A stretch of 64,000 bases of DNA from Caulobacterales bacterium (GTDB lineage: Bacteria; Pseudomonadota; Alphaproteobacteria; Caulobacterales; Caulobacteraceae). This document shows positions 461 through 64,000 of the stretch, piece after piece (the stretch's first letter is position 1; every line of letters starts with the position of its first letter). A program made the position numbers and the translations under genes. Where the stretch lies: assembly GCA_016183935.1 (NCBI GenBank), contig JACPDR010000007.1, forward strand, positions 1-64,000, written 5' to 3'. Below the pieces are notes generated by a model that saw only the letters and a program-made list of their open reading frames with translations, ran no database searches and was not told where the DNA came from.

Positions 461-1777
461 ATGTACGACACGGGTTATGAGTTCATCGGCTGGGAACAGC
501 TGTTCGAGGTGTGGGCGCCGAAGGTGCTCGGCGCTCTCCTGATCCTCGTCGCCGCCTGGTTCATCGGCAAGGCGGTGAAATGGGCCCTGGCCAAGGGGGT
601 CGACCGCATCCCCGGGGCCTCGAAGGCCAATTTGAGCGAGAATCCCAAACACACCGTGGGCGCCAGCCTCGGCGACGTGGCCTTCTGGCTGATCCTCCTG
701 TTCGGCGTGGTCGCCGCCCTCGGCGTGCTCAACCTGGGTCAGGTCGTCACCCCGCTCAACGCCCTGCTGACCCAGGTCATGTCCTTCCTGCCGAACATCC
801 TCGGCGCGGTCCTGATCTTCTTCATCGGCTTCGTGGTCGCCACCCTGGCGCGCCGGGTCACCGAGGCGGCCCTGCAGGCGGCCAACGCCGACCGCTGGCT
901 GGACAAGGCCGGGCTGTCGAGGGCCACGGGCTCGACCGGGGTCAGCGCCGCCGTAGGAACCCTGGTGTTCGTGCTGGTGCTGATCCCGATCACCATCGCG
1001 GCGCTGGAGCAACTCGGCATCGAGTCGCTGACCGTCCCCGCCGTGGCCGTGCTGTCGACGGTGTTCGACGCCATCCCGAGGGTGCTGGCCGCGGCCATCG
1101 TGCTGGCCATCGGCTGGTTCATCGGCCGCTGGGTGGCGCAGGTCGTCGAACGCGTCCTGCCCGCCACCGGCTTCGACCGCAGCGTCTCGAGCGTCATGAG
1201 CCTGGCCTCGAACCGGCCGTCCGTCGAGCCGCCGGCCACGGCCGCGCCCTACGCCGGCGACGTCACCCCGGCCACGGCCGCGGCGCTCGGCGGCGCGCCG
1301 TCGGCCCCGGTCCCGCTGACCCCTTCGCGGGTGGTCGGCAAGCTGGTCATGGTGGCCATCGTCGCCTTCACGGCGGTCGAGGCGGCGCGGCTGCTGCAGT
1401 TCTCGACCCTGGCCATGACCGTCGAGGAAATTCTCGGCCTCGCCGGCCGGGTCATCGTCGGCGGCGTCATCATCACCGCCGGGGTGCTGATCGCCGACGT
1501 GCTGGCGCGCCTCATCAACAAGGGCACGGGCGGGGCGGACGGCTTCGCCTCGACCCTGGTGCGCTGGGCGACCATCGCCCTGGCCACGGCCATGGGCCTG
1601 CGCTTCATGGGCATCGCCGACGACATCGTGCTGCTGGCCTTCGGCCTGGTGCTGGGCGCGGCGGCGGTGGCCGCGGCGCTGGCCTTCGGCCTCGGCGGCC
1701 GCAACGCCGCCGGTCAGGTGGCGCAGAGCTGGGCCGACAAGCTCACGCGGCGGCCCGGCGGACGACCGCCGGCCTAG
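461..1777 (+). CDS. Mechanosensitive ion channel family protein (conserved TM helix repeats)
   Basis: A 438-residue integral membrane protein with about eight hydrophobic segments (roughly residues 22-40, 73-91, 110-130, 165-190, 210-235, 295-315, 325-350 and 375-400). The segments contain repeated PxxLxAxxIxxIGxxxA-type helices (PNILGAVLIFFIGF, PRVLAAAIVLAIGWFIG) typical of the 'conserved TM helix' / CmpX-like group related to small mechanosensitive channels. No C-terminal MscS beta-domain is evident. A proline/alanine-rich linker at about 250-285 splits the protein. The frame is open far upstream through the repeat element, but the residues there are low-complexity, so the ATG at 461 (MYDTGYEF) is the likely start. 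It probably acts in the inner membrane in osmotic or envelope stress. Confidence 0.8.
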   Translation: MYDTGYEFIGWEQLFEVWAPKVLGALLILVAAWFIGKAVKWALAKGVDRIPGASKANLSENPKHTVGASLGDVAFWLILLFGVVAALGVLNLGQVVTPLNALLTQVMSFLPNILGAVLIFFIGFVVATLARRVTEAALQAANADRWLDKAGLSRATGSTGVSAAVGTLVFVLVLIPITIAALEQLGIESLTVPAVAVLSTVFDAIPRVLAAAIVLAIGWFIGRWVAQVVERVLPATGFDRSVSSVMSLASNRPSVEPPATAAPYAGDVTPATAAALGGAPSAPVPLTPSRVVGKLVMVAIVAFTAVEAARLLQFSTLAMTVEEILGLAGRVIVGGVIITAGVLIADVLARLINKGTGGADGFASTLVRWATIALATAMGLRFMGIADDIVLLAFGLVLGAAAVAAALAFGLGGRNAAGQVAQSWADKLTRRPGGRPPA

Positions 1778-1920
1778 TCCCGGGACGGCACAGGTTCGCC
1801 TGCGAGGGGCGGTGCGGGAGCGCCGCCCCTTCGCAATTCGCCGCCGGCGGGATCGGCCTTGCATGGGAACCCCGGTCCGGCGCCTACGTTCGGTTCACGG
1901 ACGTTAGGAATTCAGTAACC

Positions 1921-2049
1921 ATGCGGCGCGCGCTTCGAACCGGCCTGTTCATCGGCACCCTGATCGGCATGTCGGCCTGCGCCGTCACCCCGGACGACGG
2001 GGCTTCGCGCGGGCCCTATGGCGGCGTCGAGATCGGCCGCACCCGCTGA
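1921..2049 (+). CDS. Small predicted lipoprotein (42 aa)
   Basis: A 42-codon frame whose product has a basic start (MRRALRTG), a hydrophobic stretch (LFIGTLIGM) and a lipobox-like end, MSAC, with Cys at about residue 20. The remaining 22 residues are polar and contain GPYGGVEIGRTR. This is the layout of the very small entericidin-like or cryptic lipoproteins common in alphaproteobacteria. It stands alone between the channel gene and the CNNM gene on the same strand. The function is unknown; the call rests on the signal architecture only. Confidence 0.55.
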   Translation: MRRALRTGLFIGTLIGMSACAVTPDDGASRGPYGGVEIGRTR

Positions 2050-2144
2050 TCGCGAAAGGAAATCGTGGCGGTGGGGGCAAAACCCCCGTATCATTCTCCC
2101 TGCGGACGCCGGCTGTCGCGCCGCGCCGGTCTCGCTCCCCCTAG

Positions 2145-3479
2145 ATGTTAGCCATCGCCATCGTCGTCGTACTGCTGCTCGTGGTGCTGAACGGCCTGTT
2201 TTCCATGACCGAACTCGCGGTCGTATCCTCGCGCAAATCCAGACTGCAGAGCCGCGCCGAACGGGGCGACCGCGGAGCGCGGGCGGCGCTGAAGCTGGCC
2301 GAGGAGCCGACGCACTTCCTGTCGGCCGTCCAGGTCGGCATCACCCTGATCGGCATCGCGGCCGGCGCCTACGGGCAGGCGGCCATCGCCGGCGAGCTGA
2401 ACCTCATCCTCGAGGGGCTCCTGCCCGGCCTCGCCGCCTATACCGAGGTGTTCTCGACCGTCCTGGTCATCGTCTTCATCACCTATGTGTCGGTGATCGT
2501 CGGCGAACTCGTCCCCAAGCGGCTGGCCCTGATCTTCCCGGAACCGATCGCCTCCAAGATGGCGGCCCCGATCTCGACCGTCGCCATCGTGCTGAAGCCG
2601 TTCGTGGTGGTGCTGACGGTGTCGACCTCGGCCATCCTCAAGGTCATGGGGGTCAAGGACCGCGACGGCTCGGACGTGACCCAGGAAGAGGTCGAGACCA
2701 TGATCGCCGAAGGCACGGCCTCGGGTCTGATCGAGCCCGAAGAGCAGGAGATGATCGAGGAGATCCTGCGCCTCGGCGACCGACCCATCCGGGTGGCCAT
2801 GACGCCGCGCCACGAGGTGTTCTGGATCGCGCTGAACGACAGCGAGGAACAACTGCGTCAGGAGATCCGGACCTGTCCCTATTCGCGCATCGTGGTGGCG
2901 CGCGAAAACGACGTCGACAACCCCCTGGGCGTTGTTCACAAAAAGGATCTTCTCGACAGCCTGCTGGACAACGGCGAGTTCAACGTCGAGCGGCTGGTGC
3001 AGACGCCGGCTTTCATTCCGCAATCGACCTCGGTCCTGAAGGCGCTCGAGATACTCAAGGCGTCCAAGGTCCACATGGCCTTCCTGGTCGACGAGTACGG
3101 CGCCTTCGAGGGCGTGGTGACGGCCACCGACCTGCTGGAGATGATCGCCGGGAACTTCGACGAGGGCCACGACGAGGAAGAGGCCTATATCCGCCAGCGC
3201 GAGGACGGCAGCTGGATCGTCGACGGCCAGGCCGACATCGAGGAACTGGCCGACGAACTCGGCGAGGACTTCGGCGAGACCGAAGGGTTCCACACCGTCG
3301 CCGGCCTGGTCCTGCACCAGCTGTCGCGGGTGCCGGACGAGGGGGAAATCCTGCAGCTGGGACGGTTCGAGGTCGAGATCATCGACATGGACGACCGCCG
3401 CATCGACAAGCTGCTGTTCCGGCAACTGGTCAAGCCCGAGGACGAGGCCAGCGCCGTCGCGGCGCACCACGACGATTGA
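2145..3479 (+). CDS. Hemolysin/CNNM-family protein with CBS pair and CorC domain
   Basis: 444 residues with the standard HlyC/TlyC-CNNM order. An N-terminal DUF21 membrane domain (about 1-190) starts with a long hydrophobic helix and the segment FSMTELAVVSSRKSRL. A pair of CBS modules follows (about 205-330; MTPRHEVFWI and VDEYGAFEGVVTATDLLEMI). A CorC/HlyC C-terminal domain closes the protein (about 345-430). Family members bind adenine nucleotides through the CBS pair and are linked to Mg2+/Co2+ efflux or tolerance; the haemolysin name is historical. The start at 2145 has little Shine-Dalgarno, so a slightly different start is possible. It sits just upstream of tRNA-Trp. Confidence 0.88.
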   Translation: MLAIAIVVVLLLVVLNGLFSMTELAVVSSRKSRLQSRAERGDRGARAALKLAEEPTHFLSAVQVGITLIGIAAGAYGQAAIAGELNLILEGLLPGLAAYTEVFSTVLVIVFITYVSVIVGELVPKRLALIFPEPIASKMAAPISTVAIVLKPFVVVLTVSTSAILKVMGVKDRDGSDVTQEEVETMIAEGTASGLIEPEEQEMIEEILRLGDRPIRVAMTPRHEVFWIALNDSEEQLRQEIRTCPYSRIVVARENDVDNPLGVVHKKDLLDSLLDNGEFNVERLVQTPAFIPQSTSVLKALEILKASKVHMAFLVDEYGAFEGVVTATDLLEMIAGNFDEGHDEEEAYIRQREDGSWIVDGQADIEELADELGEDFGETEGFHTVAGLVLHQLSRVPDEGEILQLGRFEVEIIDMDDRRIDKLLFRQLVKPEDEASAVAAHHDD

Positions 3480-3490
3480 CCCTTCCGCCC

Positions 3491-3519
3491 TTGAAAAGGG
3501 GCGTGGCGTCGGGCATACG
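3491..3519 (+). promoter_or_regulatory. Candidate sigma-70 promoter for tRNA-Trp/secE/nusG
   Basis: TTGAAA (3491-3496), a 17-bp spacer and CATACG (3514-3519), placed 60 bp before the mature tRNA 5' end in the gap after the CNNM gene. It is inferred by eye only. Confidence 0.35.
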
Positions 3520-3578
3520 CCCCGGTCTGGCGATTACATGCGTCGACGGGGTCACCCGCGGCGCGCTGTGGTTCGTCT

Positions 3579-3654
3579 AGGAGTTTAGCTCAGCTGGTAG
3601 AGCACCGGTCTCCAAAACCGGGGGTCGTGGGTTCGAGTCCCCCAACTCCTGCCA
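3579..3654 (+). tRNA. tRNA-Trp (CCA)
   Basis: A complete 76-nt cloverleaf with encoded 3' CCA. The acceptor stem is AGGAGTT/AACTCCT with discriminator G, the D-arm is GCTC/GAGC, and the anticodon stem CCGGT/ACCGG carries the loop CTCCAAA, giving anticodon CCA. The T-arm is GTGGG-TTCGAGT-CCCCC and contains one U-C mismatch at the 50:64 position. It directly precedes secE, the usual bacterial arrangement. Confidence 0.97.
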
Positions 3655-3724
3655 TTTCCCCTGTCGCCGCCGGATAGGGCTTCCTATCTGGGGGCGGCAG
3701 GATCAATTCTTTGACGGAATAACG

Positions 3725-4009
3725 ATGGCCAAGGCCAAGACCCCGGGGCGCCGCCCCCAGACCGCACAACCCGCCATAGCGGGCGCCGCTGTCGCGGCTG
3801 ATGCGCCGAAGAAGCCGCGGGTCTCGATTCCGCAATTCCTGAGCCAGGTCCGGGCCGAAGGTCGCAAGATCGTGTGGCCGAGCCGAAAGGAGACCTGGAT
3901 CACCTCGGTGATGGTCTTCATCATGGTCGCGCTCGCGTCCACGTTCTTCTTCCTCGTCGACACCGGCCTGGCCTTCGCCTCGCGCATCATCCTGGCCATC
4001 GGTCAGTAA
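3725..4009 (+). CDS. secE: Preprotein translocase subunit SecE
   Basis: 94 residues with a variable basic/alanine-rich N-terminus, the conserved amphipathic segment FLSQVRAEGRKIVWPSRKE at about 38-56, and a single transmembrane helix (about 59-82). This is the minimal one-TM SecE of most bacteria. It stabilises SecY in the SecYEG channel. It lies between tRNA-Trp and nusG, 11 bp before nusG, in the near-universal secE-nusG pair. Confidence 0.96.
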   Translation: MAKAKTPGRRPQTAQPAIAGAAVAADAPKKPRVSIPQFLSQVRAEGRKIVWPSRKETWITSVMVFIMVALASTFFFLVDTGLAFASRIILAIGQ

Positions 4010-4020
4010 GAGAGACGCCC

Positions 4021-4599
4021 ATGACCGACGCCGCTCCCGCCAAGCCTGCCGCCAATCCGCGGCACAAGTGGTACATCGTCCACGCCTACTCGAACTTCGA
4101 GAAGAAGGTGGCCCAGCATCTGCAGGACCAGGCGCGCCAGCAGGGGCTCGAGGACTGCTTCTCGGAAATCCTCGTGCCGACCGAGGACGTCGTCGAGATC
4201 CGCCGCGGCCGCAAGGTCAACTCGGAGCGCAAATTCTTCCCCGGCTACGTGCTGGTGAAGATGGAGATGACCGACGACGCCTATCACCTGGTCAAGAACA
4301 CCCCGAAGGTGACCGGCTTCCTCGGCGCCGCCGGCGGCACCAAGCCGCTGCCGGTCTCGGAGCGTGAGGTCCAGAACATCATCGGCGCCGTGGAAGAGGG
4401 CGTCGAGCGTCCGAAGCCCACCATCCGCTTCGACATCGGCGAGACCGTCAAGGTCATCGACGGCCCGTTCGCCAGCTTCGACGGCCAGGTCGAGAGCGTC
4501 GACGAGGACAACGCCCGCCTGCGCGTGGCCGTGTCCATCTTCGGCCGCCCGACGCCGGTGGATCTGGAATACAGCCAGGTCGAGAAGGTCTCGAACTAG
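4021..4599 (+). CDS. nusG: Transcription termination/antitermination protein NusG
   Basis: 192 residues. The N-terminal NGN domain has WYIVHAYSNFEKKVAQ and the signature FFPGYVLVKMEM; the C-terminal KOW domain (about 140-192) contains GETVKVIDGPFASFDG. NusG binds RNA polymerase, increases processivity, and couples it to Rho or to ribosomal protein S10. The ATG at 4021 fits the family length; upstream codons in frame overlap secE and are not NusG-like. The gene follows secE by 11 bp and ends at a strong terminator. Confidence 0.97.
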   Translation: MTDAAPAKPAANPRHKWYIVHAYSNFEKKVAQHLQDQARQQGLEDCFSEILVPTEDVVEIRRGRKVNSERKFFPGYVLVKMEMTDDAYHLVKNTPKVTGFLGAAGGTKPLPVSEREVQNIIGAVEEGVERPKPTIRFDIGETVKVIDGPFASFDGQVESVDEDNARLRVAVSIFGRPTPVDLEYSQVEKVSN

Positions 4600-59461: not shown

Positions 59462-61312
59462 ATGACAGACACGACCGCCCCCGCTCCCGATGTCGCCGAC
59501 CTTCACGGACGGCCCGGCGCGGGCGCCCTGCTGATGGAGCAGATGAGCGACGCGGGCCAGCGGCGGGCCAGGCGGCGCGACATCCGCCCGCTGGCTCGGC
59601 TGCTGCCCTACGCCCTGCGCCACAAGGGCCATATGGCCATGGCGGTCGTCTGGCTGATGCTGTCCACCGCCGCCTCGCTGGCTCTGACGGTTTCGGCCCG
59701 CGGGGCCATCGACAACGGCTTCGAGAACGGCGGCGAACGGCTGAACCTGTGGTTCATGGTGCTGGCGGCCAACGCCCTGTTTCTCGGCCTAGCCACCGCG
59801 GTCCGCTACTTCTACGTCACCAAGACCGGCGAGCGCGTCATCGCCGACGTTCGCAAGGGCCTGTTCGGACGCATCCTGACGCTGGATCCGTCGTTCTACG
59901 CCACCATGCGCACCGGCGAGGTGCTGTCGCGCCTGACCACCGACATCGCCCTGGTCGAGACGCTGCTGACCACCTCGGTCTCCTACGCCCTGCGCAACTT
60001 CCTGACCCTGATCGGCGGGACCATCTTGCTGTTCGTGGTCAGTCCCAAACTGACCGGACTGGTGCTGCTGGTCGTGCCGCTTCTGCTCGGCCCGCTGTTC
60101 CTGTTCGGGCGCAAGGTGCGGCGGCTGACCGTGGCCTCGCAGGACCGCTTCGCCAACGCCGTCGGCTTCGCCGGCGAGAGCGTCGACGCCATCGAGACGG
60201 TGCAGGCCTTCGGGCGCGAGAAGAGCGCCATCGCCCGCTTCGGCGACGCGGTCGAGGCGGCTTTCGGCGTGTCGCTGGTGCGGATGAAGGCGCGGGCCGC
60301 CATGACCGCCATGGTCATCGTGGTGATGTTCGGCGGCGTCACCCTGGTGCTGTGGCTGGGCGCGCAGGACGTGATCGCCGGCCGGATGACCCCGGGGGCC
60401 CTGCTGCAGTTCGTTCTGCTGTCGGTGTTCGCCGCCGGCGCGGTCGGCGCGCTCGGCGAGAGCTGGGGCGACGTCCAGAAGGCCGCCGGCGCCATGGAGC
60501 GGATCGACGAGCTGATGCGGGCGACCCCCTCGATCGCTCCGCCCGCCACGATGCACGCCCTGCCGTCGCCGCCCGTCGGCGAGGTGTCGATGTCGGCGGT
60601 GCGGTTCAGCTATCCGGGGCGGCCCGACCTGCCCGCGCTGAAAGGCTTCTCCCTGACCGTGCGGCCGGGCGAGACCGTAGCGCTGGTCGGTCCGTCCGGG
60701 GCCGGCAAGAGCACCGTCTTCCGCCTGCTGCTGCGCTTCTACGATCCGCAGTCCGGCGTGGTGTCGGTGGACGGCGTCGACGTGCGCGAGGCCGATCCCG
60801 TCGCCGTGCGCGACCGCTTCGCCTGGGTGTCCCAGGAAGCGCCGCTGTTCTCGGGATCAGCCAGCGAAAACATCCGCTTCGGACGCGAAGCGGCGACACT
60901 GGATGAGGTCCGCACCGCCGCCGAGGAAGCCCAGGCCCTGAGCTTCATCGACGCCCTCCCGGAGGGTTTCGAGACCCCCCTCGGCGAACGCGGCAAGAGC
61001 CTGTCGGGCGGCCAGCGCCAGCGGCTCGCCATCGCCCGGGCGCTGGTTCGCGACGCGCCGATCCTGCTGCTGGACGAGGCGACCTCGGCGCTCGACGCGG
61101 AGAACGAGCGTCTGGTGCAGGCGGCGCTGGACCGGGCCATGTCGGCGCGCACCACCCTCGTCATCGCCCACCGCCTCGCCACCGTCCTGCGGGCCGACCG
61201 CATCGTGGTGATGGAGGACGGCCGGGTGGTGGAGGAGGGGACCCACAACGCCCTGATGGCCCAGGGCGGCCTGTACGCGCGTCTGGCGGAGCTGCAGTTC
61301 CGGGCGGACTGA
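59462..61312 (+). CDS. ABC transporter, fused permease/ATPase (MsbA/LmrA-like)
   Basis: 616 residues: six-helix type I exporter domain (about 45-330) and an ATPase domain (about 370-600) with Walker [10 protein letters not shown], signature LSGGQRQRL, Walker [13 protein letters not shown] and the H-loop IAHRL. Works as a homodimer in the inner membrane; relatives export lipids or drugs. The ATG at 59462 follows an N-terminal charged cytosolic arm. It is part of the conserved DUF1192-rcdA-rpmE-ABC neighbourhood. Confidence 0.94.
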
Positions 61313-61828
61313 CCCTGTCGCCCAAAAATCGCGAAACCCTGTCATCCCGACACATTTGAACGGCGGATTCCTGGGGTGGAGCGACGCTTCGCAACGATGT
61401 CAAAGACCCATACCGCGCACTGTAGGGCGGCGGTGCGTCAGAATTGGTCGGAGGGCTTCGTCGCCCGGCGGCGGGGGCGATTCCGACGCCCGGCCGCCCG
61501 TCTGGCGAGGCCCGGCCGGCGCATAATCCCGCCCGCGACCGTGAGTCCGTCGTCGTTCCGCAAAGGCCGCGCCTCGTGAGGGCGGGGGTGCACGGGATGA
61601 CAGGGTTTGGCGCTGTTTGGCAGGGATGGCAGGTGTCGGGAATCCACCCCAAGGCGGAGGGGGTGGGCGGCGAAGGTCTGGACGAGAAGGCTGCCCCGGG
61701 GCCTGCCGGCGAGTCCGCTGTCGACCCGTTGCAGACGTTGGAAGGTCGGCTGGCCGCACTCCCTTATTGAGTGGAACGCAAGTGTCATTTCGGTGCTTGG
61801 GTGAGAAGCTAAATCTCAGGAGCGCGTT
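61313..61828. other. Gene-free stretch with a 15-bp inverted repeat
   Basis: 516 bp between the ABC gene and the beta-helix-like gene. A 15-bp perfect inverted repeat AAACCCTGTCATCCC (61334-61348) / its complement (61594-61608) brackets about 245 bp, and a GGGGTGGA element near each arm is also inverted. The open frames here are low-complexity, Arg/Pro-rich and without a convincing start. It looks like a repeat element or the scar of an insertion beside the atypical gene that follows. Confidence 0.5.
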
Positions 61829-61840
61829 GTGGAGGCTACC

Positions 61841-63130
61841 ATGCTCGACGTCGTGACCTGTGTGAAGGATGTCGCCTCTCTCCAGGAGGCGATCCGTAAA
61901 AAGGCTGCGCGCATCGAGATCGAGGGCCAGATCACCGATCTGACCAGCCTTAGGTTGCCCGCCGGCACCCATTTGCGTGGCGCAATCGGCGCAGAACTGC
62001 GCTTCAAGAAGGGGCAGCCGGGGCTGATGCTCAGCGCAGACCACATGATCGCCGATCTGCGCTTGGTGACCGACGAGACCCAAATCGCCCTCGGTTTCGC
62101 AGACGACGCTCATGATCTCGGCACTTTGACGATCAGCAATGTCACGACGGTTGGACGGGTCCATCTGGAGGCCAGCGGAGCGAAGCGTGGCGACCTGAAA
62201 CTGGACAACATCCATGTTGAACGGGCCGACGCGCGGATGGCGGCCCACCGGCCAGCGGGCTTCGGTGTGGAGGTCTTGATTGGGGCGCTCACGGTGTACA
62301 ATTCCTCGAAATCTACAGCGAGCCGCTGGACGTTGACGGCCCGAAACCTGTCGGGCGGCAGCAAGGAACACCCGTTGCGCGGAAGCGGCGTGTTCATTTT
62401 CGGTGGCTGGTTCGTCCCGGTCGATGCCGACCCGAGCCAAGGGCCGGCGCCGACGCAGAAGGGCGGCAATATTGAGTTAGAGCTGCTGACCACCGGCGAA
62501 GTCCATTCAAACGGCGGCATCCCCAACGGCACGTCCAACCTTATAACCGGCGGCGTCTTCGTCGGCTCGGGGGTACATGCCCGGAGCGTCGTTAATGAGG
62601 GTCCGGTCACCACCTATGGACCCAACGACATGGTGCTGGACAACTGGGGCAAGATCGACATCTGGAGGAGCGGCGCAACTGTGGCGTCCTACGGAGCCAG
62701 CGGCATCGGGTTTGTGAACTTCGGGGACATCGACCTCCTAAAGTTGGAGGGCCATATCGAGACCCACGGCACGGGCGCGCGTGGTTTCAACCTCTACGAC
62801 GGCTCACTTAAGGCAGCCGAATTCCAGAGCATCACGACCTACGGCGACGGAGCCATTGGGGTGCAGCTCTCCAAGCCCTTTGGAACGATCGCCGTAAAAG
62901 GAGACATCCGCACCAAAGGCGGCGAAGGCGATAGCTTGGTGCGGGGCAAGCTCGTTCATCTCAAAGCGCACGCCCTGAGCCTCAAACCCGGGACCAAGGG
63001 CGACGAGCTCAAGGTGAAGGGCCAGGTTGTCGCCGAGAACATCGACGTTCCCGACTATGATTTTGCGGCCCCTCCGAGCGTGATCAGCCGGATCGAGGTT
63101 GGCGGGAAGACGATTTCTACCCCTCTCTAA
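61841..63130 (+). CDS. Unknown beta-helix-like protein with 25-residue repeat (429 aa)
   Basis: 429 residues from ATG 61841 (GGAGG five bases upstream); a GTG at 61829 with AGGAG is a rival adding four residues. No signal peptide. The N-terminus has IEIEGQITDL and RLPAGTHLRGAIG, as in pectate-lyase-like beta-helices. The motif [V/I]-x-[S/T]-x-G recurs at 221, 256, 281, 306, 331 and 356; the last five are exactly 25 residues apart, one helix coil each. NEGPVTTYGPNDMVLDNWGKID and SGVFIFGGWFVPVDADPSQ are distinctive. It is visibly less GC-rich than the window and flanked by repeats, suggesting acquisition. I do not know its function. Confidence 0.75.
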   Translation: MLDVVTCVKDVASLQEAIRKKAARIEIEGQITDLTSLRLPAGTHLRGAIGAELRFKKGQPGLMLSADHMIADLRLVTDETQIALGFADDAHDLGTLTISNVTTVGRVHLEASGAKRGDLKLDNIHVERADARMAAHRPAGFGVEVLIGALTVYNSSKSTASRWTLTARNLSGGSKEHPLRGSGVFIFGGWFVPVDADPSQGPAPTQKGGNIELELLTTGEVHSNGGIPNGTSNLITGGVFVGSGVHARSVVNEGPVTTYGPNDMVLDNWGKIDIWRSGATVASYGASGIGFVNFGDIDLLKLEGHIETHGTGARGFNLYDGSLKAAEFQSITTYGDGAIGVQLSKPFGTIAVKGDIRTKGGEGDSLVRGKLVHLKAHALSLKPGTKGDELKVKGQVVAENIDVPDYDFAAPPSVISRIEVGGKTISTPL

Positions 63131-63254
63131 CCTTCGTCCGGACCGCTCTTGGGCGACTGACGGATGTCTTGTTCCGGGCTCAGCGGTATTGTCCGCTACC
63201 CACCCATTGCAGACCTCTGCCATGTCTGCTTCCGGCGTTTTGCCCCCACCCCGC

Positions 63255-63390
63255 CGTCATCCTCGGACTTGATCCGAGGATCAGAGGCGAGAGGCGGGCT
63301 GTGCGGCGGTGACGGCCCCGCGAGCGCGACCGTGAGGCGTTCGACGGAGCACCGGATGATCTGATCCTCGGGTCAAGCCCGAGGATGACG
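63255..63390. repeat. Dispersed REPIN-like repeat, copy 2 (inverted)
   Basis: 136 bp, reverse orientation relative to the copy at 213-347. Ends are CGTCATCCTCGG-A-CTTGA... and the complement, with two mismatches between the arms here. The central part contains complements of the GGTGCTCCG and CCGCACAGCCCGCC blocks of copy 1. It occupies the 322-bp gap between the beta-helix-like gene and sodC; the remaining bases show no gene. Confidence 0.85.
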
Positions 63391-63452: not shown

Positions 63453-64000
63453 CTAACCGGCCGCCATGACGCCGCAGACCACGCGGGCGCCGGCGCCGCC
63501 GATCGGCTGGCTGGTGTGGTCGTCCATGGCGGCGTGGATCACCAGCGCCGAACCGTCGGCGTCCCACAGCCACTGGCCGGGCCCCTCGCGGGCGATCCGG
63601 GCCTCGGTGGTGAAGACCTCGGCGCGGACCCGCCCCTGGGCGTCGGCGAAGACGTTGGGCAGGTCGCCGTCGTCCGGCCCCTCGGCGTTCAGCAGGCCGT
63701 GCGGCGCCTTGGGCTCGCCGTGGTTGATATGGCCGCCCGCCGAGGTGAAGGGCGTGGCGCACTGGCCGGTGGCGTGGATATGGGCGCCGTGCCAGCCGGG
63801 GGTCAGGCCATCCGCCTCGATGCGGATCAGCAGGCCGGTCGGACCCTGCGTCAGTATGGCCCGGCCGACGTTCTCGCCCGCGGCGTTCACCAGGGTGGCC
63901 TCGCCGAAATCGCCGACGGCCGCCCGCTCCGGCGCGTCGGAATAGTCGTTGGCGGTGACGCTGACGCAGGCGCCGAGGGCGGCCACGAGGGGCAGGGCGG
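63453..64000 (-). CDS. sodC: Cu/Zn superoxide dismutase family lipoprotein, 5' end outside window
   Basis: At least 182 residues visible; the frame continues past 64000, so the start codon is not seen. ALPLVAALGAC at the visible start is the end of a lipoprotein signal. The SOD core has WHGAHIHATGQCATPFTSAGGHINH (Cu and Zn ligands, first disulphide Cys), GDLPNVFADAQGRVRAEV, LVIHAAMDDHTSQPIGGAGARVVCGVM (His ligand, Zn/disulphide region). It removes periplasmic superoxide. An internal GTG at 63986 is too far in to be the start. Confidence 0.93.
   Translation of the reverse strand, partial: ALPLVAALGACVSVTANDYSDAPERAAVGDFGEATLVNAAGENVGRAILTQGPTGLLIRIEADGLTPGWHGAHIHATGQCATPFTSAGGHINHGEPKAPHGLLNAEGPDDGDLPNVFADAQGRVRAEVFTTEARIAREGPGQWLWDADGSALVIHAAMDDHTSQPIGGAGARVVCGVMAAG

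Follow-up and report, generated by a model that had tools for sequence, protein, structure and literature searches.

A predicted right-handed beta-helix gene as candidate cargo of a one-gene mobile cassette in a Caulobacteraceae genome

Orphan genes scattered in a patchy way across phyla are common, and the vehicle that carries them is usually unknown. The window analyzed here, a stretch of 64,000 nucleotides of Caulobacteraceae DNA, raises this question for a gene located between an ABC exporter gene and sodC: what does its 429-aa product look like, and how did the gene come to lie there? We consider it rather probable that a one-gene mobile cassette carries the gene as its cargo, with a 210-aa recombinase as the likely actor, and that its product is a ligand-binding protein of a horizontally moving family. 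The features of the locus are the following.

59462..61312, plus strand: ABC exporter (PF00664 and PF00005), resident left neighbor
61313..61712, no strand: resident DNA 3' of the exporter, containing an inverted repeat and largely common to G082, G066 and G002
61713..61738, plus strand: left 26-bp site, G-type, GTCCGCTGTCGACCCGTTGCAGACGT, one of the two weight-matrix matches in the window at threshold 10
61739..63190, no strand: interior of the putative cassette, GC 0.61, with other DNA here in relatives
61841..63130, plus strand: 429-aa predicted right-handed beta-helix protein, putative cassette cargo (ORF, motif register, AlphaFold2, VIA-align)
63191..63216, plus strand: right 26-bp site, C-type, GTCCGCTACCCACCCATTGCAGACCT, oriented as the left one (weight matrix, strict pattern)
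63257..63388, no strand: REPIN-like inverted pair, at the same place in G082 too
63453..63986, minus strand: Cu/Zn superoxide dismutase SodC (PF00080), resident right neighbor, abutting the exporter in G044, G129 and G073

Predicted fold and exposed face

The reading frame starts with an ATG at 61841, giving 429 aa; an alternative GTG at 61829 gives 433 aa. The motif [VI]x[ST]xG occurs in the 429-aa protein at residues 101, 221, 256, 281, 306, 331 and 356. The first-pass annotation of this DNA had described a 25-residue motif without drift from 256 to 356 and an extra motif at 221; both are confirmed, the one at 101 having been missed. The spacing of the five motifs 256/281/306/331/356 is exactly 25 residues, the motif count of the protein was reached in none of 5000 shuffles, and the longest chain of equally spaced motifs in these shuffles was two. 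This exact register is limited to coils 256-356, coil length being variable elsewhere in the protein. The deviant base composition noted for the gene was also recovered when GC was checked, since its GC3 of 0.774 is the lowest of 45 window ORFs (median 0.927), the comparison set being the non-overlapping ORFs of at least 150 aa kept by a GC3-GC2 filter (n = 45).

An AlphaFold2 model obtained from a 12-sequence alignment (pLDDT 90.9, pTM 0.90) contains strands throughout and a single helix at residues 11-19, the N-terminus leading directly into this helix as in capped beta-helices. The best structure in VIA-align was AlgE4 (Z 27.7, rmsd 3.5, 305 aligned), and the Sf6 tailspike reached Z 27.4. 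With Foldseek, nothing in the PDB fell below E 0.001, the best match being pectate lyase A at 0.014, and three viral models were retrieved at E 4e-4 to 6e-4. The search for a solved relative by sequence returned merely two matches, at E 0.37. An actinobacterial relative with 45% identity (L005) is predicted with the same fold (pLDDT 92.1), and its best VIA-align scores were obtained with the Vag8 passenger (Z 26.6) and the Sf6 tailspike (26.5). Parallel coils of ~22-25 residues and an N-terminal cap, as found in the prediction, are those of a right-handed parallel beta-helix, the fold proposed at first pass, and structure prediction returned it for the window protein and its relative alike. 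From these models, the gene is confidently predicted to encode a right-handed beta-helix along nearly the whole chain.

This fold is common to pectin-lyase-like beta-helices such as the AlgE4/AlgE6 epimerases, phage tailspikes and the Vag8 passenger (Z ~23-28), and sharing it with AlgE4 and tailspikes does not show a function. Unlike these proteins, the window protein has no detectable sequence family, apparent signal peptide, tail or autotransporter domain. We propose that it would be a cytosolic, single-domain protein providing an optional accessory trait. Bactofilins and SufB/SufD are cytosolic beta-helices as well, so the first-pass remark that such a location is unusual was overstated.

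Outward positions in the middle strand were assigned by the 25-residue register (offsets 9, 11 and 13); that these point outward is suggested by the mostly hydrophobic offsets 8, 10 and 12 and by the Asn ladder N268/N293. The corresponding residues are conserved in 24 of 25 rows for D267, W269, V292, F294, N317, Y319 and S344, in all 25 for Q342 and in 23 for S365, and close to them D263 (25 rows), N262 and R314 (24 each) and D336 (23) are conserved too. Thus, an almost invariant exposed face spans five coils on one sheet: D267/W269, V292/F294, N317/Y319, Q342/S344 and S365. The divergent paralog of Nocardia acididurans (G530) keeps most glycines and both Asn; all its ladder residues differ. 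Near-invariance in the family together with loss in the paralog speaks for binding or catalysis at this face. From this conservation pattern, the protein probably binds something via the exposed ladder and, solely by analogy of fold, our best guess is that the ligand is most likely a saccharide or another small molecule.

The same ladder of exposed aromatic residues could serve as an assembly face, and the protein could then be a structural cytoplasmic scaffold, a bactofilin-like polymer instead of a ligand binder or an enzyme. Such a role, which we hold to be unlikely while keeping it in view, would agree with the lack of any matched catalytic family: no Pfam, PHROGs or NCBIfam model scored above cut-off for the family, and pectate lyase, alginate epimerase and tailspike families were unmatched by sequence above cut-off, with Pectate_lyase_5 giving a weak match (E 0.042) in 1 of 17 members. 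However, the polar D267, N317, R314 and Q342 are near-invariant on one face across phyla, which better suits a specific ligand, a weak argument given that polymer faces can be conserved too. With ligand binding as the preferred reading, this unnamed family offers a conserved face without assigned function. Membership in a defense system was considered and rejected, PADLOC being blank as well (0 of 17 members).

Spread of the family and the exporter-SodC locus

Relatives in genome contigs were found at 12 loci (Bosea 84%, Pseudaminobacter 79% and ten actinobacterial ones 41-48%), and five plasmid records carry others (Deinococcus at 67%, Cupriavidus, two Caballeronia and Flammeovirga). A single relative is labeled as phage, in the Streptococcus record PP091924 (L020), where the family member neighbors a ClbS/DfsB gene and lies at most ~7 kb from IS66 genes and the gene of an LPXTG protein. 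Since this copy is also near the record end, phage carriage is doubtful and the copy is possibly host DNA. A viral origin of the gene was rejected, since IMG/VR, queried with the alignment of the family, yielded 77 pattern matches and 0 relatives, and blastn of E. coli genomes gave no match to the gene.

Within the genus, 3 of 131 genomes match, at full length solely in the window's genome (G000) and as short weak stretches in the other two. The family is present in 2 of 398 genomes drawn from the phylum (the window's own included), in 2 of 396 from the phylum of a Sinomonas genome and in 11 of 396 from the order of that genome (center included in both), and in 1 of 397 from the order of Bosea, namely the center alone. 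Four of the 11 copies are split or truncated (G933, G1022, G1035 and G1047), and in this actinobacterial order it looks as if the gene was often lost. A 26-row tree groups the window protein with Bosea, Pseudaminobacter and the Deinococcus plasmid (support 100/100), and the main actinobacterial rows lie away from it. The transfer from Actinobacteria envisaged at first pass thus finds no support in the phylogeny, but the patchy spread and this cross-phylum clade do indicate horizontal transfer of the family.

No conserved operon partner emerged across the 28 family loci compared. A medium-chain dehydrogenase/quinone-reductase-like gene is a neighbor at three of them (L010, L011 and L018), too few to build on, and was set aside as a partner. 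Nocardia acididurans carries two divergent beta-helix gene copies ~8 kb apart (L066, contig 14 of G530), with large regulator-like ORFs, one neighbor being AAA_16/LuxR, and a dehydrogenase between or beside them.

A query running from the exporter end to SodC in G044 was searched in 131 genus genomes, and among the matches listed it aligns over nearly its whole length in G044, G129 and G073; the two genes therefore abut in these genomes. The locus is occupied in five others (G000, G082, G066, G064 and G002), where the two genes are on the same contig and separated by 1.2 to 4.2 kb. They are not neighbors in most genomes of the genus, SodC being absent within ~5 kb of the exporter in 9 of the 10 relatives fetched. 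Horizontal arrival, as suggested in the first-pass annotation, is thus upheld by the full-length gene being found in one of 131 genus genomes and by the abutting exporter and SodC genes of three relatives.

Counterparts of the upstream flank in the window, compared together with the final 112 bp of the exporter gene, are present at 75-85% identity in G082, G066 and G002, indicating that this flank is resident together with its inverted repeat (61333-61348 / 61594-61609, one mismatch). The DNA that follows this flank differs in each of the window, G082, G066 and G002. Downstream, the REPIN-like arms are found at 63257-63282 and 63363-63388, and the arm TCATCCTCGGGCTTGACCCGAGGATC occurs 34 times forward and 33 times reverse in the genome, with 0 for the reversed control (up to 3 mismatches). 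The gene had been described as sitting between an inverted repeat and a REPIN-like element. Both are real, according to the repeat arms and the genome-wide arm count, but the inverted repeat belongs to the resident exporter flank and is not an import, and the two direct 26-bp sites bracketing the gene had been missed. Such sites are absent from the three empty loci (0 in G044, G129 and G073); the occupied relatives have five (G082), two besides a weak match (G066), one (G064) and none (G002). At this place, G064 holds a 436-aa minus-strand ORF (L069) with a redoxin/prolyl-hydroxylase-type look by eye.

Short direct sites and the genes between them

The 26-bp site is a near-palindrome with arms GTCCGCT and GCRGAC and an asymmetric core SACCC, according to which G-type (CGACCC) and C-type (CCACCC) sites are distinguished. 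The weight matrix at threshold 10 has 61713-61738 and 63191-63216 as its sole matches in the 64 kb. A strict pattern allowing two mismatches at most is found 17 times in G000 (reversed control 0), 10 in G082, 8 in G066, 9 in G044, 6 in the Bosea genome G523 and 2 in the Pseudaminobacter genome G524; once reversed, it is absent from five of these six genomes and present once in G524. Sites are told from chance solely by the strict pattern and the matrix, looser patterns being near chance (40 window matches for pat2 versus 27.6 in shuffled sequence, 7 versus 5.1 for pat3). As these genomes also served to train the matrix and the loci were picked for holding sites, site numbers are a matter of construction, but orientation, spacing, GC and breakpoints are not.

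In the unselected list of 52 strict-pattern matches, neighboring pairs less than 2.5 kb apart have the same orientation in 18 of 18 cases. The matrix scan covered 24 loci. Of the 52 strict matches, 41 fall in 20 fetched stretches or in the loci of the window, G082 and G066; these comprise all 17 of G000 and, outside G000, mainly paired ones. With weaker matrix partners included, neighboring sites 241-1478 bp apart share their orientation in 31 of 32 pairs (p 1.5e-8), and the sole opposite pair includes a match of score 10.1; an opposite pair 81 bp apart (L106) and a palindrome read on both strands (L109) are outside this count. The 30 plus-plus pairs run from G-type to C-type in 22 cases, the others being G-G (6), C-G (1) and C-C (1). 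When same-strand sites touch, a C-type site is followed by a G-type one at exactly 25 bp (5 of 5), and the resulting C-G double site of ~51 bp is the joint between consecutive cassettes. The two types also differ in their arms, the left one being perfect in 7/34 G-type versus 15/25 C-type sites (p 0.003) and the right one in 24/34 versus 11/25 (p 0.06). Finally, interior GC is below flank GC at 20 of 20 loci (mean 0.61 versus 0.70).

Direct imperfect palindromes as ends, left and right sites of unlike type (G-type followed by C-type in 22 of the 30 plus-plus pairs) and an arm perfection that depends on type would also fit non-autonomous single-strand transposons, in which the hairpins are ends for a Y1 (IS200/IS605-like) transposase and the tandem C-G sites are end-to-end insertions. 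We find this quite improbable, with the weak counterargument that the array presented below adjoins a tyrosine recombinase and not a Y1 transposase and that sites are enriched near homologues of this recombinase. Single sites fold no better than shuffles, and neither does one of three double sites. Rfam applied to eight site loci reached its gathering score for two tRNAs alone, and blastn of plasmids with a double site gave one weak match.

Several observations bear on the cassettes as units. An Imm50-like cassette (its gene matches PF15594 at E 1.6e-4, under the family cut-off) occurs at two unrelated places, on contig C20 of G000 and, in G082, between the exporter and SodC genes. The two copies are 85% identical in DNA over 537 columns, the homology having its left limit at GACCC within the left site and its right limit at most 3 bp from the end of the next site. 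Conversely, G044 and G066 have a right flank in common (95% over 1.8 kb) that starts two bases into the right site, and the cargo beside it differs between them. On contig C32 of G000, the L099 array reads G-cargo-CG-cargo-CG-cargo-CG-cargo-C, which makes four cassettes. Among the remaining cargo are genes for a TPR protein and, in Bosea, for a GrpB protein, as well as a response-regulator receiver domain. As judged by eye, the best ORF runs along the sites in ~18 of 31 intervals and antisense to them in L100, L110, L112, L113 and L114, the remaining intervals being without a clear ORF.

Another account would be that single genes enter variable spots by ordinary homologous recombination and that the hairpins are gene-end signals or REP-like repeats located there by chance. 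It would explain that the exporter-SodC spot is variable both with and without sites, and that a REPIN adjoins it. Direct pairing (18/18 in the strict list, 31/32 with the matrix), the three empty loci without sites, the breakpoints at sites and the fixed 25-bp tandem spacing nevertheless speak against it, and we give it very little credence. We therefore keep to the cassette reading, according to which the two direct sites would bracket the beta-helix gene as the cargo of a one-gene cassette. At the 27 other beta-helix family loci scanned, none has sites flanking both sides, and two have one weak match within 1.5 kb; the cassette would thus be one way in which the gene moves and not its general vehicle.

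A short tyrosine recombinase and known cassette systems

A 210-aa ORF lies on the opposite strand 32 bp past the end of the L099 array, whose terminal site is weak (score 11.9). In L099 coordinates the array covers 1217-3549, with cargo consisting mostly of small ORFs without a clear name, and the recombinase 3582-4214. Its residues 38-194 match Phage_integrase (PF00589, E 2.3e-18), and the motifs LRACDL, QQKTG, HSLRR, LLGH and VRYLG provide the R...K...HxxR...H...Y series of a tyrosine recombinase. Simple tyrosine recombinases are composed of a core-binding and a catalytic domain, as described in PMC8138268, whereas 210 residues leave no space for the former as a domain of its own. A frame-shifted copy of the recombinase adjoins a lone cassette ~8 kb from it.

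From its position beside the array, we infer that the 210-aa recombinase acts on the 26-bp sites. Encoded elsewhere in the genome than the beta-helix gene, it would excise and insert cassettes, presumably via circular intermediates, by recombination in or near the SACCC core, where the crossover point is placed by inference. If true, this would be a little-known route by which bacteria swap single genes, and carriage one gene at a time by short direct sites and a 210-aa recombinase would make patchy gene content explainable and testable; cassette arrays could be mined for new functions, and the compact recombinase with its short site could become a tool.

The organization resembles that of integrons, which are defined in PMC8618304 by intI, attI and attC cassettes. 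Tandem single-gene cassettes, direct sites and a tyrosine recombinase beside the array are common to both. The conserved boxes of attC are GTTRRRY/RYYYAAC. If its attC sites had diverged very far, a true integron or CALIN would account for the one-gene cassettes, the tandem arrays, the direct sites, the double sites of ~51 bp and the tyrosine recombinase at the array end. We nevertheless think it very unlikely, because the recombinase (the array-side one alone was tested) scores 57.7 bits against a cut-off of 220 with the integron-integrase model (XerA/IntI, NF040815) and has no room for a core-binding domain, and because these boxes are not conserved in the 59 listed sites, read by eye. The 26-bp single or ~51-bp double sites, scattered lone cassettes and some antisense ORFs further separate the present system from integrons.

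Genes lying between short two-arm sites of the tyrosine-recombinase type, with an asymmetric core, are also known from the pdif/dif modules of Acinetobacter (XerCD). In dif modules, the 28-bp XerC/XerD sites alternate in inverse orientation, whereas here the sites are direct (31/32 pairs) and a dedicated recombinase is linked. Given the missed integrase model, the lack of attC boxes by eye and the non-inverted layout, we file the cassettes under neither integrons nor dif modules. Somewhat short of an even chance, in our estimate, they form a separate capture system, with its own short recombinase and 26-bp direct sites, that moves single low-GC genes such as the beta-helix gene about on alphaproteobacterial chromosomes, with related recombinases and sites on plasmids and viral contigs from other proteobacteria. 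A literature search by site string and topic, with preprints and most subscription papers outside its scope, gave, among the papers listed, no title on such sites or such a system.

Homologues of the recombinase are found in 431 of 72,556 plasmid records and at 8 viral loci (nearly full length in four). Sites were scanned at 14 homologue loci, made of 4 viral ones and 10 plasmid records chosen out of 40 listed of the 431. With the matrix at 13 or more, 21 matches were obtained in 165 kb, at 10 of the 14 loci, versus 2 (scores 13.5 and 15.2) in 439 kb of 37 loci fetched for other reasons, an unmatched background mostly of other taxa. Shuffled versions of the integrase loci plus four fragment loci gave a mean of 0.4 matches in all, and reversed versions gave none. 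A site scoring at least 20 is present at 4 of the 14 loci and no match at 4, and 3 of the 21 come from a single palindrome read twice. A different core, GGCAC or CGCTC in enterobacterial plasmids, is seen in several of the homologue-linked sites. On a Pantoea agglomerans plasmid (L132, 6019-7528), a recombinase homologue adjoins a gene whose annotated product is a right-handed parallel beta-helix repeat protein.
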